From IMG/VR virus record IMGVR_UViG_3300034682_000221, positions 1 to 38,968 of that record: a DNA stretch of 38,968 nucleotides; one strand, 5' to 3'. Both the position numbers and the translations under genes were made by a program. This DNA is from a virus. The first letter of the stretch is position 1; each line of letters opens with the position of its first letter. This document shows positions 19,785-38,968 of this stretch, in pieces. Below the pieces are notes generated by a model. The model did not search any database. It saw only the letters and a list, made by a program, of their open reading frames with translations, and was not told the DNA's origin.

Positions 19785-20507
19785 ATGACATTCTCACCGG
19801 CCCATGATGGGCTGAATGTGGGTTCAGGCAACAGATGTGGCCACAACCCAAACAAACCGAAATTCCTCGTGCGCCCTCACGCACACAAAGCGCCTAAGTT
19901 CATTGCCAGGGCCAGAGAGCTGGTCGAGCTTTACTATTCCCGCCTGAAAGAGCTCACGGCGCTGGATGCGCTCAACCCGCACCGCAAAAAACGCTCTGAG
20001 CGCAGAGAAGCCACAATCCAGGTGCTAAAGGCGCTGATAAAGTACCTGGACCTGGTGACCCTTACCGTTGGGATCCCCACCAAGGATGGGCAAGTTGGCC
20101 TGACGTTGCTCAGGTTGCACAAGGAGACATCGATCAGCTGGTCTCGATTCAAGCGGGCTATCGCCGATCTGCGCGAGGCTGGTTTCCTTACTATCAGTCA
20201 GCCAAGAATGACGAACTCAGCGGGTCAGGTGCGTGGCCTGGTGGGTATCAAAGCGATCTCCCCTCGCCTGTTCGAGGCGCTCAAGATCGATTTCTGGTTG
20301 CGCCGAGAGCGCGACAGGGCATCGAAACGCCAACGCGCCAAAGCCAACGAGGCCGGCGTGACTCAGCGCAGTTTCTACCAGCGCTCTAAACCTCTGCGCC
20401 CCGCAATGGCTGCAGGCCACAATTTGCAGACAGCCCAAGGTGTTGGCCAGCCTCCCAGCTGGGCGCAGTTTAAGGCAAGCACAGCGGCCCGCCAGCCGCT
20501 CTCTTAA
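19785..20507 (+). CDS. repA: Plasmid replication initiator, IncFII RepA-like
   Basis: This 240-residue basic protein should bind the origin just downstream and recruit host DnaA and DnaB. Residues 73-160 look like the winged-helix core of IncFII RepA: a helix EATIQVLKALIKYLDL, the LTLLRLHKETSISWSRFKRA recognition-helix region and ADLREAGFLTISQP leading into the wing, followed by a basic linker (WLRRERDRASKRQRAK). R1 RepA is about 285 residues, so this one is somewhat short at the C-terminus. The start is fixed by the AGGCGG ribosome site and by the ATGA overlap with a leader frame. The antisense hairpin and DnaA-box origin around it independently support this call. Confidence 0.8.
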   Translation: MTFSPAHDGLNVGSGNRCGHNPNKPKFLVRPHAHKAPKFIARARELVELYYSRLKELTALDALNPHRKKRSERREATIQVLKALIKYLDLVTLTVGIPTKDGQVGLTLLRLHKETSISWSRFKRAIADLREAGFLTISQPRMTNSAGQVRGLVGIKAISPRLFEALKIDFWLRRERDRASKRQRAKANEAGVTQRSFYQRSKPLRPAMAAGHNLQTAQGVGQPPSWAQFKASTAARQPLS

Positions 20508-20800
20508 CCATCCACGCCACAACCCCCACCCCATAACCCAGCCTTTGCGCTGGGCGCTTCCGCTTGCCCTTCATTAGCCACCTCAGCATTGATCACCTTG
20601 GCCAGCATCAAAGCCACAAAGCGCCAGCCTCGAATGTAACCTATCACGTTGAGTTATCCACAGATTCAGCCCGCCAGGCACCCTTCCTCCCCTTATAGAT
20701 AAACCGTATGTGTACCCAAGCCCTGTGGGTATCCAAAATTAAGTGTTCCTCATTATTTCAGGGGTATAAATACATATATTCAGATCATCCTGGCTCGCAA
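20508..20800 (+). other. Predicted replication origin (CIS-oriR-like)
   Basis: No gene is apparent here. From left to right it holds a GC hairpin (CCCAGC/GCTGGG near 20538-20554), a perfect DnaA box at 20654-20662 and an AT-rich stretch at about 20735-20790 that could be the unwinding region. A DnaA box about 150 bases behind the repA stop matches the CIS-oriR arrangement of IncFII plasmids, where RepA acts in cis on the downstream origin. Confidence 0.65.
20654..20662 (+). promoter_or_regulatory. DnaA box
   Basis: TTATCCACA is the perfect consensus DnaA-binding site. It is the only one noticed in the presumed origin. Confidence 0.85.
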
Positions 20801-21341
20801 GCTCCCCAGGGAGAATGCCTGGCTATGCAGGCCAGCAAGCTGGCCGCCGCCAGAGCAAGGTCAACTGCAAGAATGCCTGACCTTGCAGGGCGCAAGCGCC
20901 CGCCGGTCAGCAGGTAACCCCCATTCGTGGGGGCAAGCCCCCACACCCCAGCCCCAAAACCACAGCTCGAACCTGTCATGCCCCATAAAGGGGCCGATCA
21001 CCTTCATGGGGGCGTCAGGCTGTTGTGGCCTTAAAGATAAAAGACGCTCAGCAGGGAGGGGGGTCGCTGTCGCTGTGATACCGCAGTCATTCCTCAACAC
21101 CGGCGACGCAGTGAGCATTAAAAAGAAAAGCCATGCCGCGGCATGGGCAAGGTGTGAGATTGCGTAAAACGAGGCTCAGGCGCGTTAAAGAGGGGAAAGG
21201 CCAGATAATGAAACCGGCCATCGAAATACAACAGAGATGCAACATTTTTAAGGTAGGAGTTCACAGGGTGGCACCTCCCCTTTGTTGTCAGTTTTGGGCC
21301 GTTCGTGGCCAGGCGCAGGCCAACGCCGCCCGCGAACCTGC
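20801..21341. other. Non-coding region with GC hairpins between origin and Xer site
   Basis: No convincing gene is seen. Two imperfect direct repeats share GAATGCCTG, then a TGCAGG core and a hairpin (20815-20853 and 20872-20907), and another hairpin lies at about 20921-20943. A 54-codon frame starting at 21208 has a poor ribosome site and no recognisable features. The part next to the Xer site could hold accessory-protein sites for recombination, but no ArgR or ArcA box was identified. Confidence 0.5.
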
Positions 21342-21369
21342 ATTAAACATAATGTACGTTATGCGCACA
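21342..21369 (-). other. dif-like XerCD recombination site
   Basis: Read on the minus strand, the 28 bases comprise a XerC-type arm TGTGCGCATAA, a 6-base centre CGTACA and a XerD-type arm TTATGTTTAAT. Compared with the E. coli dif site (arms GGTGCGCATAA and TTATGTTAAAT, centre TGTATA, from memory) 24 of 28 positions agree. On a plasmid such a site resolves multimers; on phages such as CTXphi it permits integration at the chromosomal dif. It lies 13 bases beyond the end of the XRE regulator gene. Confidence 0.85.
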
Positions 21370-21382
21370 TGATTTTTTGCAA

Positions 21383-21793
21383 TTATGGCGGGTCGCCCTG
21401 GTCGTCACTGCCGGATGCTCTTAGCTGGATGGGGGCGCCCAGGGCGTCAGCCATGACCATCAGCTGGTCGATCACGGTGTCGGCCAGGCGAGGTGGGAGG
21501 CGCAGGAAGATACGCAGCGATCTGTCCAGGTGGCGCTGGCGTCCGATAGGCAGCAGCAGGTCGCCGATCTCTATGCCTAGGTAGGTGCAGATGCGGCGGG
21601 CCGCAGGAAGGGGCATGAACCCGCTGTGGCGCACGTTGAGCCACCGCCTGATGGATGTGGTGGGGATGCCCGTCTCGAATGACAGGTCATCGACTGAGAC
21701 GCCGTGACGCTGCATCAGCTGCGCCAGGTGCTTTTTGGTAGCGATTACATATTCCCGATCATCATCGGTCAGATAGGCATAGGCGGGTTTCAT
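21383..21793 (-). CDS. XRE-type helix-turn-helix regulator
   Basis: The 136-residue protein has an N-terminal helix-turn-helix of the Xre/Cro type, centred on HGVSVDDLSFETGIPTTSIR (about residues 30-49), followed by ARRICTYLGIEIGDLLLP, a typical end of this fold. The C-terminal 50 residues may mediate dimers. The start at 21793 is favoured by an AAGGAG ribosome site 7 bases upstream; a longer frame exists but lacks one. It is transcribed away from a region with two lux-box-like palindromes, so it may be a quorum-responsive regulator or the repressor of the small divergent gene. Confidence 0.8.
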   Translation of the reverse strand: MKPAYAYLTDDDREYVIATKKHLAQLMQRHGVSVDDLSFETGIPTTSIRRWLNVRHSGFMPLPAARRICTYLGIEIGDLLLPIGRQRHLDRSLRIFLRLPPRLADTVIDQLMVMADALGAPIQLRASGSDDQGDPP

Positions 21794-21848
21794 GTCACAC
21801 TCCTTGTGAGCTCCCGCGCTCGCCGTGATCTGTCGTTCGTCTGCCGTT

Positions 21849-21864
21849 ATGTCAGATCTGACAA
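21849..21864. promoter_or_regulatory. lux-box-like palindrome, site 2
   Basis: The sequence ATGTCAGATCTGACAA contains a perfect 14-base palindrome and agrees with the LuxR/RhlR-type consensus CTGNCAGATNTGNCAG except for its first and last bases. It is centred 44 bases from site 1 and about 63 bases upstream of the XRE gene's start codon. Confidence 0.6.
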
Positions 21865-21892
21865 CCACATTTGATAGTAATGATAGAGCCAG

Positions 21893-21908
21893 CAACCAGA
21901 TCTGGCAG
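21893..21908. promoter_or_regulatory. lux-box-like palindrome, site 1
   Basis: The sequence CAACCAGATCTGGCAG contains a perfect palindrome CCAGATCTGG and a perfect right half of the consensus CTGNCAGATNTGNCAG. The 15 bases ACCAGATCTGGCAGG (21895-21909) are the same as those in the Pseudomonas rhlI promoter box as I remember it. A TATAGG -10-like element on the + strand (21933-21938) places the site centre near -44, the usual LuxR activation position, with no competing -35 box. Confidence 0.65.
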
Positions 21909-21985
21909 GCGCTCGCCATCTGGTCGGAGTAGTATAGGAATGGTTCAATTAATCACTGATTCATCAATTGCGGTATAAGATAAAA

Positions 21986-22174
21986 ATGAAATCAAAACTA
22001 CGGGATATCATGAAACAAATGCTTGAGCTGGCTGGCCCTGACAACTGTTCTGCCGAGCTGGTTGAGTTGATGAAAGAGGGGCTGGCGATCACCCAAAATG
22101 AAACAGCCCCCTGGGTGGGGGCTGCTCTCTTAAATCAGGCCGGACTTCCTCGCCCTGGTAATCACCCAGGGTGA
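21986..22174 (+). CDS. Small open frame downstream of the lux-box-like promoter
   Basis: This encodes a 62-residue protein whose first 35 residues form amphipathic helices (KLRDIMKQMLELAG and AELVELMKEGLAI). No family is recognised. Its support is contextual: a lux-box-like site plus TATAGG upstream and an intrinsic terminator for the same strand at 22294-22338. Against it, the ribosome site is weak (AAGATAA) and its 3' end overlaps, tail to tail, a minus-strand gene with a far better ribosome site. If real, it is placed to be a quorum-induced small protein like Qtip of phage VP882. Confidence 0.4.
   Translation: MKSKLRDIMKQMLELAGPDNCSAELVELMKEGLAITQNETAPWVGAALLNQAGLPRPGNHPG
22094..22124 (-). 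terminator. Terminator of the par operon
   Basis: On the minus strand an 8-bp stem (CAGCCCCC/GGGGGCTG) with a 5-base loop is followed by TTTCATTTT. It lies just behind the 45-codon gene and ends leftward transcription from parA. Confidence 0.7.
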
Positions 22175-22267
22175 CATCATTTCAAGCAATGCTCTGCGCT
22201 GGGTCAGCGGCATAGCCAAAAAGTCTATAATGCGGTGGCCCGCTCTGGTATTATTGTTCTGTTGCAT
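22130..22267 (-). CDS. Small basic protein, third gene of the par operon
   Basis: This 45-residue gene was found by eye. It has a strong ribosome site (GGAGG, 7 bases before the start codon) and encodes a basic protein with a central hydrophobic stretch RIIDFLAMPLTQRRALLEMM. It follows parA and the ribbon-helix-helix gene in the same direction and is followed by a terminator. No homologue is recognised; it might modulate partition or copy number. Confidence 0.6.
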   Translation of the reverse strand: MQQNNNTRAGHRIIDFLAMPLTQRRALLEMMSPWVITRARKSGLI

Positions 22268-22293
22268 AGTGTCCCTCCAAGGTGCTTGCAACT

Positions 22294-22338
22294 ACAGGCC
22301 GACTCTCTCACAGTCGGCCTGTGTCGTTTTATTTTTTC
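22294..22338 (+). terminator. Rightward terminator facing the par operon
   Basis: A perfect 11-bp stem (ACAGGCCGACT/AGTCGGCCTGT) with a 7-base loop is followed on the + strand by TTTTATTTTTT. It would end a rightward transcript coming from the lux-box-like promoter near 21940. On the minus strand it sits between parB and the next gene and could attenuate the latter. Confidence 0.75.
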
Positions 22339-22577
22339 CATTTGTCTCGTTCTAGCTTCTCCCTTAGCGCCTCGATGATGTATTGGCTATATAGAAGCGA
22401 TGTTATTCCCTCAGCCCTAAGCGCCTTGTAGCGTTCTTCAAACGCGACTGGCAGGTTTGTCAGCAGCTTGCTCTTGGTTGCTGCCGCCGGTGCAGCTGGT
22501 TCTGCCTCTTTCTCGATGAGTCGTGCCGAGCTGCCTGCCCCGCTCAACATGCTCATATCAACACTCTTCTTTGCCAT
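22329..22577 (-). CDS. parB: Partition protein, ribbon-helix-helix centromere binder (ParB/ParG-like)
   Basis: The 82-residue product has a flexible alanine-rich N-terminus and a C-terminal ribbon-helix-helix: strand SKLLTNLP (about residues 36-43), helix VAFEERYKALRAEG, helix LLYSQYIIEALREKLERD. Such proteins are the DNA-binding partners of short ParA ATPases in type Ib systems (ParF-ParG). The flexible N-terminus would stimulate the ATPase. It lies immediately downstream of parA in the same direction with a good ribosome site (AGAGGTGAG). The AT-rich palindromes flanking parA are its likely binding sites. Confidence 0.8.
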   Translation of the reverse strand: MAKKSVDMSMLSGAGSSARLIEKEAEPAAPAAATKSKLLTNLPVAFEERYKALRAEGITSLLYSQYIIEALREKLERDKWKK

Positions 22578-22600
22578 TTCTCACCTCTAAAACCACAAAG

Positions 22601-22617
22601 CATATAACTATCATATG
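22601..22617. promoter_or_regulatory. AT-rich palindromic site A (parA-parB gap)
   Basis: CATATAACTATCATATG lies within AGCATAT-N7-ATATGCT in the short gap between parA and parB. Its reverse complement fits the consensus CATATNANNNTTATATR shared with sites B (23309-23325) and C (28514-28530). It is a candidate ParB-binding site or internal operator. Confidence 0.55.
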
Positions 22618-22640
22618 CTTTTTATATGTTAAGTATATAT

Positions 22641-23279
22641 TTATTTCTGTTCCAGGATGGACAGGACTTCTTTGCCGAATGCCCGAACCTCTTTGCCTGC
22701 CTCGCTGCTGGCGGTGGCCACGCGCTCGGTGACGCCAAGGCCCACATCCATCATCACCCCGAAGTCGGCCCGCCGGCTGAGCTTGCTTGTCATCATGGTC
22801 AGGTTATTCAGGCCGGATACCGCGTCAGTCAGGCGGCTGACATCGCGGCGGCTCGGGTGGGTTCTGGTCATCAGTACGTGGCCGATCAACGGGGTGGGCA
22901 GTTTGAAATCCTGCTCGATGCTGGCCAGGGTTTCGTTGAAGGCGACCAGGCCGCGCAGTTCGGTGATGTCATCGTTTGCCGGGCAGATGATGATGTCTGA
23001 ATAGGCGATGGCAAAGCGGGTCAGGTTACTGTCATAACCGCCGCAGTCGATCAGCAGGTCGAGATCCGATTCGATGAGTGCCGCCAGTTGCGGGCCGGTG
23101 ACATCGCCGTGAACATCCCACTTCATATCGTCAGGGCGCAGCCGGTTGAGTGTCGCCAGGCAGAGGTGGCGATCGAGGTCTACCAGCGTCTTGATGCCCA
23201 GCTCTCCGGCCAGCTGCAGGGCCGTTGTGGTCTTGCCGGTTCCGCCCTTGCTGTGCGCTACCGTGATGATCTTTCCCAT
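22641..23279 (-). CDS. parA: Partition ATPase, type Ib ParA
   Basis: This 212-residue ATPase moves plasmid copies over the nucleoid. It begins with the deviant Walker A motif KGGTGKTT (residues 10-17), including the signature lysine at residue 10, has a Walker A' aspartate in LVDLDRH (about residue 34) and a Walker B segment LDLLIDCGG (about residue 75). It lacks the N-terminal helix-turn-helix of P1-type ParA, so autoregulation must come from the small partner. A GGAGG ribosome site precedes ATG 23279. Together with the RepA replicon this is the clearest sign of a plasmid lifestyle. Confidence 0.95.
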   Translation of the reverse strand: MGKIITVAHSKGGTGKTTTALQLAGELGIKTLVDLDRHLCLATLNRLRPDDMKWDVHGDVTGPQLAALIESDLDLLIDCGGYDSNLTRFAIAYSDIIICPANDDITELRGLVAFNETLASIEQDFKLPTPLIGHVLMTRTHPSRRDVSRLTDAVSGLNNLTMMTSKLSRRADFGVMMDVGLGVTERVATASSEAGKEVRAFGKEVLSILEQK

Positions 23280-26817: not shown

Positions 26818-27311
26818 GACTGAGCCATAAAAAGAAGCTGGCCCATAAGCGGTCGGGGGCGGCCAAGGGGTGGGCGTTTGTGTTGCTGGCCCGTAAATGG
26901 CGGCGTGATGGGGTCACCATCGCCATCAAGAGCCCTCATGTTCTCGATGGGGTCACTATCACCATCAAGAAGCCTTGCTCTGTTGTGGGGGAGGTTGCAT
27001 CAAACCACGATGAGGCAAGTCCCGCCGCGAGTGATGACTACATAGCGATGGGGTTCACCACTTCGGAACCCTGCGTGATCGTTGGCGAGGTCGCATCAAG
27101 CCCCGCATCAGCAGCGCCAGCTTCGGTTGATGATGCCAATGCTCCTTGTATTGATGCTGATGTGGCTGCCGCCATGCAGGAGGTTGCGCGTTCGGCAGCG
27201 CACACTGGCGGCCTGATGACCAAGCTGGTTGGCGCGGTGTCATCCACCTTCCGCCGTCTGCGCGAGGCTGGCGCAGCCCAGGCCGATATCATCCGGGGGC
27301 GTATCGGGTGA
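26814..27311 (+). CDS. Hypothetical protein with internal repeats
   Basis: This protein of 165 residues starts with a basic stretch (MRLSHKKKLAHKRSGAAKG) and then shows internal repetition: DGVTIAIKSP and DGVTITIKKP, and CSVVGEVASN and CVIVGEVASS. A C-terminal helix STFRRLREAGAAQADIIRG follows. ATG 26814 is preferred because it overlaps the previous stop as ATGA. The GTGA overlap with the integrase means both are translated together. The repeats suggest a young gene assembled by duplication; function unknown. Confidence 0.55.
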   Translation: MRLSHKKKLAHKRSGAAKGWAFVLLARKWRRDGVTIAIKSPHVLDGVTITIKKPCSVVGEVASNHDEASPAASDDYIAMGFTTSEPCVIVGEVASSPASAAPASVDDANAPCIDADVAAAMQEVARSAAHTGGLMTKLVGAVSSTFRRLREAGAAQADIIRGRIG

Positions 27312-28486
27312 TCCTGACCGCCTCCATCACAGATGCCGCCATCCGGCGGCACTCTGCCAATCCCGAGATCCACGAGCTGCGCGACCCGCGCCACCCCATC
27401 CGGTTTCGTTGGGCCAAGTGCCGCCAGCGCGGCTCCGTGCATCTGGTGCTGCATATCAGGGGCGAGGCCCGCTGGCGCAAAATCGCCCCATGGCCGTCCG
27501 TGCCTGCCGCGACCGTGGTCGCAGACCTGCCCCGCATGATCTCATCGCTGATCGCCGACCCCGCCGCCGCCGTGGCCATGAGCGAGCTGGTCACCTTTGC
27601 CGACCTGCTGCGCTGGCATGGTGATCGGGTGGCAAAATCCCGCACTTTGTCAAAGTCCCGCCGCGCCGCCGTGGCATCCCAGATCAAGCGCCAGCTGTTG
27701 CCGCTGTTCGGCGAGTTGTCCCTGCACTCATCGAGAGACGATCTCGATCGGGTGGTGCAGCAGTATCAGCAGCACTACGTGATCGATACCGTTCGCGCCG
27801 GATGGGGGGTGTTAAAGCAGGCCGCCAAGCAGGCGCGCAAGGTGGCGCTGTTGCATCACGACCCGCTGGCCGGTCTGGCATTCGGTGATCTGGTTACCCA
27901 CAAGCCGGTGCAGCGCCCGGGCCGCCTGCGCCCATCACAGGCCCAGTCGGTGCTGGCCGAGCTGTCCGGCCCGCTCACTGCTTCCACCATGCTCTGCCTG
28001 CTGGCCTTGCTGCATGGCACCCGCATCGGCGAGACCAGGCTGGCCGAGTGGCGCGAGTTCGATCTGGTGCCGGGTGGCTGCTGGTACCTGCCGCCCGCTC
28101 ACACCAAGTCCCGCCGCGAGCATGTGCTGCCGCTAACGCCAATGGCCCTGGAGCTGCTGCTGCGCTATCGCGCCAGCCAGCAGGCCGCCGGATATCGCGG
28201 GGTCTACCTGTTCCCCGCTGACACTCGCCCCGGCCCCATCGGTGCCCGCGATGCGACCCGCGCCGTGGCGGCCGTCTCGGGTGGCCGCTGGTGTGCCCAT
28301 GACCTGCGCAAGCTGGCCCGCACCCGCTTTACCGACCAGGGCACCGACCATCTGGTCGGCGAGGTGTTGATCAATCACGCCATGGGCAAGCTGGCGGGCA
28401 TCTATATCAACTCATCCATGCGCGACCAGATGCGTGAGGCACTGTCGCTCTATCACGACTGGCTGGCCGAGCAGGGCAAACAGTAA
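27308..28486 (+). CDS. int: Tyrosine integrase
   Basis: This 392-residue recombinase has an N-terminal arm-binding region, a core-binding domain (about residues 95-180) and the catalytic domain with all active-site residues visible: Arg239 (HGTRIGE), Lys267 (HTKSRRE), His331 and Arg334 (HDLRK), His357 (INHAMG) and the nucleophile Tyr366 (GIYINSS). It could integrate the phage DNA or resolve multimers. It starts with GTG overlapping the previous stop. Being last in the early operon, it is expressed together with the Cro-like gene. No attP was identified. Confidence 0.93.
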   Translation: MILTASITDAAIRRHSANPEIHELRDPRHPIRFRWAKCRQRGSVHLVLHIRGEARWRKIAPWPSVPAATVVADLPRMISSLIADPAAAVAMSELVTFADLLRWHGDRVAKSRTLSKSRRAAVASQIKRQLLPLFGELSLHSSRDDLDRVVQQYQQHYVIDTVRAGWGVLKQAAKQARKVALLHHDPLAGLAFGDLVTHKPVQRPGRLRPSQAQSVLAELSGPLTASTMLCLLALLHGTRIGETRLAEWREFDLVPGGCWYLPPAHTKSRREHVLPLTPMALELLLRYRASQQAAGYRGVYLFPADTRPGPIGARDATRAVAAVSGGRWCAHDLRKLARTRFTDQGTDHLVGEVLINHAMGKLAGIYINSSMRDQMREALSLYHDWLAEQGKQ

Positions 28487-29486: not shown

Positions 29487-30023
29487 ATGAGTTCAACAAC
29501 TGGCGACAAAATCGAGCGTGACAACTACCCGACTCCGGTCGATGTGATCAACGCCATGCTGGCCAAGATGGGCTGGCGCCCCGGTGATACCTTCCTTGAA
29601 CCGTGCCGGGGTGATGAGAGCCGTATTTATGACCGGGTGCCGTTACCTGAATCACAAAAGGACTGGGCTGAGATCTCGATGGGCCGCGATTACCTGGCCC
29701 ACGACTTCGGCCGTAAGTTCGATGTGATCATCACCAACCCACCGTTCAGCCTGACCGAGGAGTTTCTGGAAAAGAGCCTGGCCGAGCTGAAACCAGATGG
29801 CACCTTGATTTACCTGCAGCGGGTCAACTTCCTTGGCTCCATCAAGCGGGTTCCGTTCTTTGCCCGGATTGGCTTTCCGAACAAGACGCCGGTCATCATC
29901 CCGCGCCCACGCTTTGCCAAGGGCGGCACCGACTCTTGCGAATACGCCTGGATGGTCTGGGATCGCGGCGGCCGCTTCAATGTGCCGAACGGCATCAGCC
30001 ACCTGCTCACCCGCGCCGGTTGA
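29487..30023 (+). CDS. Adenine-specific DNA methyltransferase, phage type
   Basis: This 178-residue enzyme has the N6-adenine methyltransferase motif IV NPPF at residues 84-87 and a motif I region written as FLEPCRGDES (residues 37-46) instead of the usual DPFxGxG form. The N-terminus (NYPTPVDVINAML) is shared with phage Dam-type enzymes. It probably protects phage DNA from host restriction or marks it. Length is close to other minimal phage methyltransferases; a separate target-recognition domain is absent. It belongs with the Lar-like gene that follows. Confidence 0.78.
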   Translation: MSSTTGDKIERDNYPTPVDVINAMLAKMGWRPGDTFLEPCRGDESRIYDRVPLPESQKDWAEISMGRDYLAHDFGRKFDVIITNPPFSLTEEFLEKSLAELKPDGTLIYLQRVNFLGSIKRVPFFARIGFPNKTPVIIPRPRFAKGGTDSCEYAWMVWDRGGRFNVPNGISHLLTRAG

Positions 30024-31212: not shown

Positions 31213-31902
31213 ATGCACTACCATCCAAAACCCGCCGCCAGTCATGCCGCCTCCCTTCGCCCTGGACAGCTTCGCCATGTGATCCGTGTTGCCTCGATAA
31301 CAGGCCGCCAGCACATCCGTGACGTGATGTTGCTATGGCTCACCCATTCAACCGGTGTGCGCGTCACCGAGTTGGCCAGCATCGAGATCCGCGACCTACT
31401 GCACCCATCCGGCCAGATGCGCGAGGAGGTATATCTGCGGGCCGCTATCACGAAGCACAGCCGCCCCCGTACCATCTATCTGACCCATCCCAAGACCATC
31501 ACAGCCATTGAGGCGTGGCTCGCTTACCGCCGCGAACGTGGCTGGGGTATGTCATCAGATCCCGAGTACCGAGGCTTTCGCCCTGATGAGCGCCTTGTGC
31601 TGACCCATAAGGGCCGCGCCTTCGAGCTGGCCCGCAAGGTTCGCCAGCTACAGGGCGGGCCGGTCGAGTACCGGTGCTGTGATGCGCTCCAGCAGCTGAT
31701 GAGCAGGCTTTACCGGCAGGCTGGTATCAAGGGCGGATCCAGCCACTCAGGCCGCCGCACGTTGGCGGCCAAGGTGCTGGCCAATACTGGCAAAATTGAG
31801 TTGGTGCAGATGTTGCTCGGTCATGCCGAGCCTGATCACGTCTGGCCATACCTGGACGTGAGGAAGGAGGAGATCAGGAGGGCGTTTGCTCTGGCTCTGT
31901 AA
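31213..31902 (+). CDS. Minimal tyrosine recombinase
   Basis: This 229-residue protein consists almost entirely of a catalytic domain of the tyrosine recombinase family: Arg50 (STGVRVTEL), Lys81 (ITKHSRPR), His178 and Arg181 (SSHSGRR), His204 (LLGHAEPD) and Tyr213 (WPYLDV). The usual core-binding domain is missing, so it may need a partner or act on an unusual site. The nested inverted repeat right before the gene could be its substrate or a translational control hairpin. It is the second tyrosine recombinase of this element and could be devoted to multimer resolution or inversion. Its 3' end overlaps the minus-strand regulator gene by 29 bases. Confidence 0.85.
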   Translation: MHYHPKPAASHAASLRPGQLRHVIRVASITGRQHIRDVMLLWLTHSTGVRVTELASIEIRDLLHPSGQMREEVYLRAAITKHSRPRTIYLTHPKTITAIEAWLAYRRERGWGMSSDPEYRGFRPDERLVLTHKGRAFELARKVRQLQGGPVEYRCCDALQQLMSRLYRQAGIKGGSSHSGRRTLAAKVLANTGKIELVQMLLGHAEPDHVWPYLDVRKEEIRRAFALAL

Positions 31903-34156: not shown

Positions 34157-34324
34157 ATGTGCCCGATCCAGGCGTCTGATCTCGGTCTGCCCCCAGATCA
34201 CCCCCTCACGTTGACGAATGCCGAGTTGGCGGCCCGCCTGCTTGATCTGCTGCCTGCTCTCCCTCCCCTTTACACTCCCCTGGTGCAGGAGGCGGCCCAG
34301 CGTCTGCTTGATCTGGGTGATTAG
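34157..34324 (+). CDS. Small leucine-rich protein antisense to the luxR 3' end
   Basis: This gene encodes 55 residues with a leucine-rich helical part (ELAARLLDLLPALPPLYTPL and VQEAAQRLLDLGD). GGAG lies 9 bases before the ATG. Its last 119 bases overlap, in antisense, the 3' end of the LuxR-type gene, and that overlap corresponds to the LuxR protein's unusual C-terminal tail. It might be an independent regulator or simply a gene that the luxR frame has grown into. Confidence 0.55.
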   Translation: MCPIQASDLGLPPDHPLTLTNAELAARLLDLLPALPPLYTPLVQEAAQRLLDLGD

Positions 34325-35054
34325 CGTGGTCGATCACCTTTGCCCGGTCGAGGGTGATATCCAGCTCCCTGCTGCGCAGCGCCCGCGCCACGGCGTTGTA
34401 ACGATTGGCCGCCCCTAGCTTGCGCCCCGCCGAGTTGAGGTGATGGGTAACGGTGCGCTCAGGGATGCCCATGATGATGCTGATCTCGGCGCTGGTTTTG
34501 CCCTCGCTGACCCAGAACAGGCAATCGGACTCCACGATGGTTAGTGGTCGTGAGCTGGTCGGCCTGCATGCCCGCAATACCGCATCGAGCACATAGGGAA
34601 CAACCAGTGCCAGGGTCGGGGCCGCTTCGATATAAAGCCCAGGCCGGAACTGCTCGGTGATAAAGCTCATCACCCCCGACTCGCCCTTTGGGCCGTGCAG
34701 GGGATACGAGACCCCACAGCGCAACCCGCATTTGGCCGCTTCAACCATCACATCCATCTGCTCATCGTTGCCGCGCAGCTCTTCCCATCTGATTGGCCTG
34801 GTCTGTGAGCGCGCCGCCGCGATAACCGGATCTCTGGCAATCATGCCGTGGCGGTTGTAGTGCTCGATCCACTCGTTCGGGCATGAGTTGAGAATGCGAA
34901 TAATGGGCCGCTGGTTGCTGACCGGGATGATGATGGCGAGTCGGTAATAGTCAAAGCCGAGGCCGTTGATCAGCTGCTCGATGGCGGCGGTCAACTCATC
35001 GGGATCGGTGATGCAGTCGAGTTCGGTCAGGCGCTCAAGCAGGCCATTTTTCAT
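34206..35054 (-). CDS. luxR: LuxR-type quorum-sensing receptor encoded by the phage
   Basis: This 282-residue protein has a full autoinducer-binding domain (about residues 15-165) and a GerE-type DNA-binding domain (about 171-232). All four residues that contact homoserine lactone in TraR are present with identical spacing: Trp62, Tyr66, Asp75 and Trp90. The domain continues with CGLRCGVSYPLHGPKGESG, close to Aeromonas AhyR as I remember it, and the HTH has CLFWVSEGKTSAEI. There is no luxI gene in the window, so it is a solo receptor that should sense the host's signal, by analogy C4-homoserine lactone. About 50 residues extend beyond the HTH, overlapping an opposite-strand gene. Phage-encoded LuxR receptors in Aeromonas phages were reported by Silpe and Bassler (2019). 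Confidence 0.93.
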   Translation of the reverse strand: MKNGLLERLTELDCITDPDELTAAIEQLINGLGFDYYRLAIIIPVSNQRPIIRILNSCPNEWIEHYNRHGMIARDPVIAAARSQTRPIRWEELRGNDEQMDVMVEAAKCGLRCGVSYPLHGPKGESGVMSFITEQFRPGLYIEAAPTLALVVPYVLDAVLRACRPTSSRPLTIVESDCLFWVSEGKTSAEISIIMGIPERTVTHHLNSAGRKLGAANRYNAVARALRSRELDITLDRAKVIDHANHPDQADAGPPPAPGECKGEGEQAADQAGGPPTRHSST

Positions 35055-38191: not shown

Positions 38192-38968
38192 TGGCCAAGA
38201 ACCCGAACGTCAACGCCGCGAACAAGTACGCCCGCGACGTGGTGTCGGGTCGGGTCATCGCCTGCAAGTATGTTCAGCAGGCATGTCAGCGCCACCTGGA
38301 CGATCTGGATAAGTCCAAAGAGAAGGACTACCCCTACCGGTTCGATGCCGCCAAGGCAGAACGGGCCTGCAAGTTCCTGCAACTGCTGCCGCACACCAAG
38401 GGAAAATGGCGGCGCCTGCCGCTGGACAAGCGCCGGATAACGCTGGAGCCCTGGCAGCTGTTCTTTCATGTGTGTGTGTACGGCTGGATCCGCAAGAAGG
38501 ACGGGCTGCGCCGGTTCCGGCGTGCGGCCCTGTTCGTGCCGCGCAAGAATGGCAAATCCATCGTGGCGGCGGGCAATGGCATCTACATGTTTGCGGCGGA
38601 CGATGAGCCAGGCGCGGAGGTGTACTGCGGGGCCACCACAGAAAAACAGGCGTGGGAGGTATTCAAACCCGCGATGCAGATCGCGGCCCAGCTGCCCAAC
38701 CTGCGCCGCACGTTTGGCATTCAGGTCTGCGCCAAGAAGATGCTGCGTCAGGATGGCTCGGTGTTTGAGCCGGTGATCGGTAATCCCGGCGATGGCTCAA
38801 GCCCACACCTGGCGATTGTCGATGAGTACCACGAACACGACAGCCCTGAACTGTATGACACCATGGAGACCGGCCAGGGGGCGCGAGAGCAGCCCATGAT
38901 GCTGGTGATCAGCACGGCAGGGGTTAACCCGGCTGGCCCATGCAAACAGTTCTGGGATGAGTGCGTCA
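38191..38968 (+). CDS. terL: Terminase large subunit, 5' part (join-spanning gene)
   Basis: This is the N-terminal ATPase half of the packaging motor. The Walker A motif VPRKNGKS lies at residues 116-123 and Walker B LAIVDEY at 207-213, with glutamate 212 as the catalytic residue. The frame runs off the window at base 38968 and continues from base 1 (after removing the 127-base repeat) to give 581 residues. The adenine-binding Q-motif region is [10 protein letters not shown], near residue 83. It is a typical HK97-type large terminase. Confidence 0.95.
38842..38968. repeat. Terminal direct repeat, right copy
   Basis: This is identical to bases 1-127. It marks the end of the circle at 38,841 bp. 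Confidence 0.97.

Follow-up and report, generated by a model that had tools for sequence, protein, structure and literature searches.

The window analyzed here is a viral DNA sequence of 38,968 nucleotides (IMG/VR record IMGVR_UViG_3300034682_000221), and a 28-bp stretch of it at positions 21342 to 21369 resembles dif, the site where bacteria un-join doubled chromosomes. The stretch is noncoding and lies between an IncFII-like rep/origin module on one side and the 3′ end of a repressor gene on the other, about 1.3 kb from parA. The features of the locus and of the element that carries it are as follows.

1 to 127 and 38842 to 38968: direct terminal repeat of 127 bp (identical ends)
19785 to 20507, plus strand: replication initiator gene (rep); weak match to IncFII RepA, 69 to 91% identical in six relatives
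20654 to 20662, plus strand: DnaA box TTATCCACA on the origin side, conserved in four aligned elements
20812 to 21064, plus strand: segment of ∼250 bp downstream of rep, common to 56 plasmid records of several types
21342 to 21369, minus strand: Xer recombination core site with 11-6-11 layout, TGTGCGCATAA CGTACA TTATGTTTAAT
21342 to 21352, minus strand: predicted XerD-binding arm TTATGTTTAAT, 10/11 versus host dif TTATGTTAAAT
21353 to 21358, minus strand: central hexamer CGTACA, 4/6 versus host dif TGTATA
21359 to 21369, minus strand: predicted XerC-binding arm TGTGCGCATAA, 10/11 versus E. coli dif
21383 to 21919, minus strand: helix-turn-helix (Cro/C1-type) transcriptional repressor, stop codon 13 bp from the site
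22329 to 22577, minus strand: small protein adjoining parA, ParB-like judging by its position
22641 to 23279, minus strand: ParA-family partition ATPase
27308 to 28486, plus strand: large tyrosine recombinase (integrase) of 392 amino acids, homologs in all relatives
31213 to 31902, plus strand: small Xer-like tyrosine recombinase of 229 amino acids, catalytic R, H..R, H, and Y intact

The carrier element and its relatives

The 127-bp terminal direct repeat indicates that the record is circular or circularly permuted. Its head genes are HK97-type by match to phages, and repressors of both the S24 and the Cro/C1 types are encoded. The description in the earlier note of an HK97-type phage-plasmid with its own integrase is borne out by the head genes, the ParA-like gene, rep, the 127-bp repeat, and two tyrosine recombinases. 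A DNA search of public plasmids recovered three relatives from Aeromonas, all of them complete, circular, and about 38 to 39 kb long, namely, pASaBE4 (L001) and the elements of A. caviae W3 (L002) and A. veronii Yor 16989 (L003), and further relatives were found among viral contigs (L006, L007, L008, and L022). The three complete plasmids and four viral contigs together define a family of Aeromonas phage-plasmids, from which we infer that the window's own host is also Aeromonas. A search of genome contigs with the rep alignment returned no relatives. The window encodes a LuxR-type receptor with an autoinducer-binding domain (34206 to 35054), which is also found in L001 to L003 and may be compared with the phage receptor of Aeromonas phage ARM81ld.

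The ∼250-bp segment at 20812 to 21064 also follows repA in several unrelated plasmids, and its position after repA suggests that it is likely the replication origin. Among its carriers are a Klebsiella IncN plasmid and P2-like-tailed phage-plasmids of Edwardsiella and Aeromonas (84 to 86% identity). Distant phage-plasmids that share this segment but have no Xer site encode a serine recombinase instead. No RNA above noise was found with Rfam in the interval from 20400 to 22700, which includes the segment. On the other side of the site, comparison with the relatives places the true start of the repressor gene probably near 21796.

The 28-bp site and its conservation

The site reads ATTAAACATAATGTACGTTATGCGCACA on the plus strand and has the Xer (dif/xrs) layout, with two 11-bp arms that fit the XerC/XerD consensus and a 6-bp center. 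It shares 24 of its 28 positions with Escherichia coli dif (XerC arm, 10/11; center, 4/6; XerD arm, 10/11), and the chance expectation for matches of at least 24/28 is 2.2e-7, given the base composition of the window and both strands. The recount agrees with the earlier note, which had reported the same match, nearly intact arms, and the altered center CGTACA. A tolerant dif pattern had no matches in 100 dinucleotide shuffles of the window, and a second dif site is absent from the window, where every other position departs from E. coli dif by more than 11 mismatches. The inner motif ATAA-CGTACA-TTAT is intact, as would fit an active site. In Acinetobacter, the inner motif of ATAA, center, and TTAT governs XerCD binding and cutting (PMC11705084). 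A second phage with this very type of site was sought by an exact search of viral contigs with the inner 22 bp, which returned no matches.

All seven relatives carry a Xer-like site at the corresponding position, with the form AC[CT]GCGTCTAA TCNNNN ATATGTTAAA[TC], and the window and every complete relative carry one site each. Invariant columns among the relatives amount to 20 of 22 in the arms versus 8 of 30 in the flanks (Fisher p 3e-6, indicative only, as the rows are related sequences), while four bases of the center vary. Conserved arms around a free center form the pattern that would be expected of a site-specific recombination core. The window site is nearer to dif than the sites of its relatives are, and their inner motif is CTAA/ATAT versus ATAA/TTAT in the window. 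Deviation from the inner motif accompanied poor recognition in Acinetobacter (PMC11705084). Use by XerCD is less sure in the relatives because of this motif, and their sites may be weaker or in need of helpers. In the outer bases of the XerC arm, the relatives have ACC or ACT, as do most Aeromonas dif sites. A tie between these bases and the host species was considered and dropped, since the dif of an A. caviae record has ACT and the A. caviae element L002 has ACC.

Candidate recombinases and the chromosomal dif

The proteins that act on the site could be those of the host or those of the phage. That a phage-encoded tyrosine recombinase acts on it, in a Cre/lox-like resolution of its own and not through host XerCD, is unlikely in our assessment, although it survives better than the other alternatives. 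The element encodes two such enzymes, and the small one is most like XerD/XerC and keeps its catalytic residues in an alignment to XerD/XerA. The window also departs from its relatives in both the site and the small recombinase, and the large integrase, found in every member, could in principle resolve multimers. Against this, the small recombinase and the site are dissociated in both directions. Its counterparts in L001, L002, L006, L007, and L008 are 95 to 99% identical to one another and 37 to 39% identical to the window protein, and they have lost the catalytic residues as read from the alignment (R to K, H to Q, H to M, and Y to L); the site is kept in all five of these relatives. Conversely, a 52-kb Mu-like contig (L087/G042) encodes an intact small recombinase with 96% identity to that of the window, and no Xer-like site was found in it. 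With a dead enzyme where the site is present and an intact enzyme where it is absent, the two are independent, and the small recombinase of the phage appears unlikely to be the user of the site. Copies of the large integrase with 39% identity occur in L005 and L024, where there is no such site. In addition, the recombinase genes lie 6 to 10 kb from the site, and the arms are too close to host dif and to enterobacterial plasmid Xer sites for an unrelated enzyme. Two records were left out of this evidence: L003, in which the recombinases are broken and many genes are split, with possible sequencing errors, and G041, an incomplete contig without the small recombinase. Host XerC/XerD is the simplest user of the site.

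The counterparts of the small recombinase lie at 27997 to 28659 in L001 and at 29979 to 30641 in L002. A protein that is dead yet conserved at 95 to 99% is perhaps a DNA-binding or Xer-modulating protein. Positions 1 to 967 of L087 hold the small recombinase (96%) together with a neighboring 101-amino-acid protein that is almost unchanged from the window, and this similarity points to a module that passed recently between phages of different kinds.

When 37 Aeromonas genomes were scanned with a dif pattern, 34 had a single match and three had none. The Aeromonas dif is mostly AC[CT]GCGCATAA TGTATA TTATGTTAAAT, with a few variants in the center and outer bases, and the published A. hydrophila dif agrees with the scanned sites (PMC2731167). 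Relative to Aeromonas dif, the XerC arm of the window is changed only in its outer 2 to 3 bases, which are more enterobacterial than Aeromonas-like. The center CGTACA differs from TGTATA at the first base, on the XerC side (C for T), and at the fifth.

The earlier note had offered two uses for the site, multimer resolution and CTXphi-like integration at dif; the former fits everything found, and the latter is not supported. The site would in that case be an attP through which XerCD inserts the phage into the host dif, as in the IMEX phages CTXphi, VGJphi, and TLCphi, which likewise carry a dif-like site. The window is indeed a temperate phage bearing a dif-like sequence, with 10/11 of the XerD arm and 4/6 of the center in common with host dif. 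However, the comparison of centers that the note had suggested reveals a mismatch at the exchanged first base as well as the fifth, which speaks against CTXphi-type compatibility. A further suggestion of the note, a look for chromosomal copies, yielded no integrated copy in the 37 genomes, a comparison with low power for a rare event in a sample that, with no close rep relative, holds few if any family members. Each complete relative is a circular plasmid that encodes rep and par, whereas CTXphi, VGJphi, and TLCphi integrate at dif without an integrase; the window is unlike these classical IMEX in that its plasmid prophage is circular and encodes rep, par, and two tyrosine recombinases. Given a single dif in the genomes scanned, the absence of close rep relatives from them, and the free circular state of the complete relatives, we regard integration at dif as unsupported and improbable. 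The least probable reading, a protein-binding operator or a decayed captured dif without present-day recombination, could draw on the repressor stop codon 13 bp away and on the relatives' arms being off the inner consensus, but the arms are near-invariant and the center variable in seven relatives, contrary to decay, the match to host dif spans both arms with correct spacing, and the site is at the 3′ end of the neighboring gene, which is no promoter position.

Proposed multimer resolution and relation to known Xer systems

We propose that the 28-bp sequence is probably a plasmid-type Xer multimer-resolution site used by host XerC/XerD. Multimer resolution is favored because the relatives are circular, the site is located with the replication and partition genes, it is conserved in 7/7 relatives, it is dissociated from the small recombinase, and its arms are plasmid-like. 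As for plasmid-type sites in general, the window holds a single site on a circular element with its own replication (rep and ParA genes). Homologous recombination between circular copies in the lysogen would give rise to dimers carrying two directly repeated sites. XerC would bind positions 21359 to 21369 and XerD positions 21342 to 21352, strand exchange would occur within the hexamer CGTACA, and the dimer would be converted to monomers that are then partitioned by the ParA system. The predicted XerCD binding, recombination, and control build on the observed sequence, uniqueness, and conserved place of the site, the circularity, and the host dif. Points that speak against the proposal are the altered inner motif in the relatives, the large integrase encoded by every member, the enterobacterial character of the outer XerC-arm bases, and the negative outcome of a simple scan for an ArgR box or canonical accessory DNA.

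With regard to control, a dif-like FtsK-activated reaction seems somewhat more likely than a psi/cer-like one with accessory proteins, given the intact arms, the intact ATAA/TTAT motif, and the 6-bp spacer. The psi site of pSC101 and the cer site of ColE1 have the same proposed function, one plasmid-borne site, and host XerCD. In contrast to these, no PepA/ArgR/ArcA accessory sequences are recognized beside the XerC arm of the window, both arms are close to dif, and the center is 6 bp, compared with 8 bp in cer. The simple scan beside the XerC arm recognized no ArgR box and no canonical accessory DNA, and this side of the site is the poorly conserved 3′ end of a coding gene. KOPS counts in the window were too low to reveal polarity.

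Xer sites are common on plasmids, and the present one is of a known kind on a less usual carrier. Plasmid records matching the window site numbered 1,122 and those matching dif 2,446, both counts being at the limits of the search and inclusive of weak E-values. The earlier note's view that either use would be notable holds mildly for the phage-plasmid carrier and loses force with more than 1,100 matching plasmid records. IncF plasmids of E. roggenkampii (L081, IncFII) and K. pneumoniae (L082 and L083, IncFIB/IncFII) have sites with the same 11-6-11 layout. L081 and L082 share the exact XerC arm of the window, and the full site is TGTGCGCATAA CAAAGA TTATGTTAAAT. The arms of the Enterobacter and Klebsiella IncF sites match the window at 21/22 positions (XerD arm, 10/11), the first center base C and the last A are shared, and the carriers are large and circular. 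The centers differ (CAAAGA versus CGTACA), and the IncF site is beside a GNAT/DUF1778 toxin-antitoxin pair, whereas that of the window is beside rep/origin and a repressor on a tailed-phage plasmid. The dif-like site lies just downstream of the toxin-antitoxin-like pair in L081 (3001 to 3855) and L082 (3001 to 3838).

Chromosomal dif sites of Aeromonas and E. coli have near-identical arms, a 6-bp center, and the ATAA/TTAT inner motif, as in the window; compared with the Aeromonas dif, the window site lies off the chromosome terminus and has TGT as its outer XerC-arm bases and two differences in the center. The dif modules (xrs) of Acinetobacter Rep_3 plasmids likewise have variable centers and mosaicism that changes at the sites. 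However, at least two sites flank a cassette in those modules, while the window and its complete relatives have one site and no flanked cassette. As proposed for the window, phage-plasmid P1 resolves multimers of a plasmid prophage with a tyrosine recombinase, through Cre/lox. P1, the textbook case, supplies its own recombinase, whereas the use of host enzymes is predicted for the window. Collectively, this Aeromonas tailed-phage plasmid family retains a Xer site at a constant position near the origin, and stable lysogeny there probably relies on the host's chromosome-dimer enzymes. The system lends itself to testing how plasmid prophages escape loss. Within the partial open-access literature searched, no paper dealt with phage-plasmids and dimer resolution, or with phage-plasmids, multimer resolution, and Xer, and a Xer site on a tailed-phage plasmid family appears to be undescribed there.

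A sequence switch in the relatives suggests that Xer sites are perhaps also seams for module trade, as proposed for Acinetobacter plasmids. Between L002 and L008, an alignment at 96% identity spans the 1.7 kb ahead of the site and breaks off 2 bp beyond it, and similarity resumes only 2 kb farther on, at 74%. The reverse is seen between L002 and L022, with 72 to 84% identity before the site (nearest 300 bp) and 93 to 96% after it (nearest 200 bp). Since both pairs have further breakpoints, chance or recombination at gene boundaries is possible. We consider only tentatively, as an attractive but rather doubtful second role, that the site doubles as a crossover point between phage-plasmids, at which XerCD would form cointegrates that are resolved later and so swap modules. 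Resolution of such a cointegrate would join the replication half of one element to the repressor/partition half of another. Module exchange at Xer sites has been shown between Acinetobacter plasmids (PMC11705084). If this holds for the phage-plasmids, immunity would be swapped between them in one step.

Sites of this type also occur on phages of another lifestyle. In dozens of records of large lytic rV5-like phages (Vequintavirinae), the sequence GGTGCGCATAA[CG]GTGTATTATGTTAAAT matches E. coli dif almost perfectly (26/28), and no role of dif in lytic phages is known to us. Examples are found in Cronobacter phage GAP31 (L085, 1201 to 1229) and Erwinia phage Hena1 (L084, 289 to 317), and the site of Hena1 lies inside a direct terminal repeat of 519 bp.
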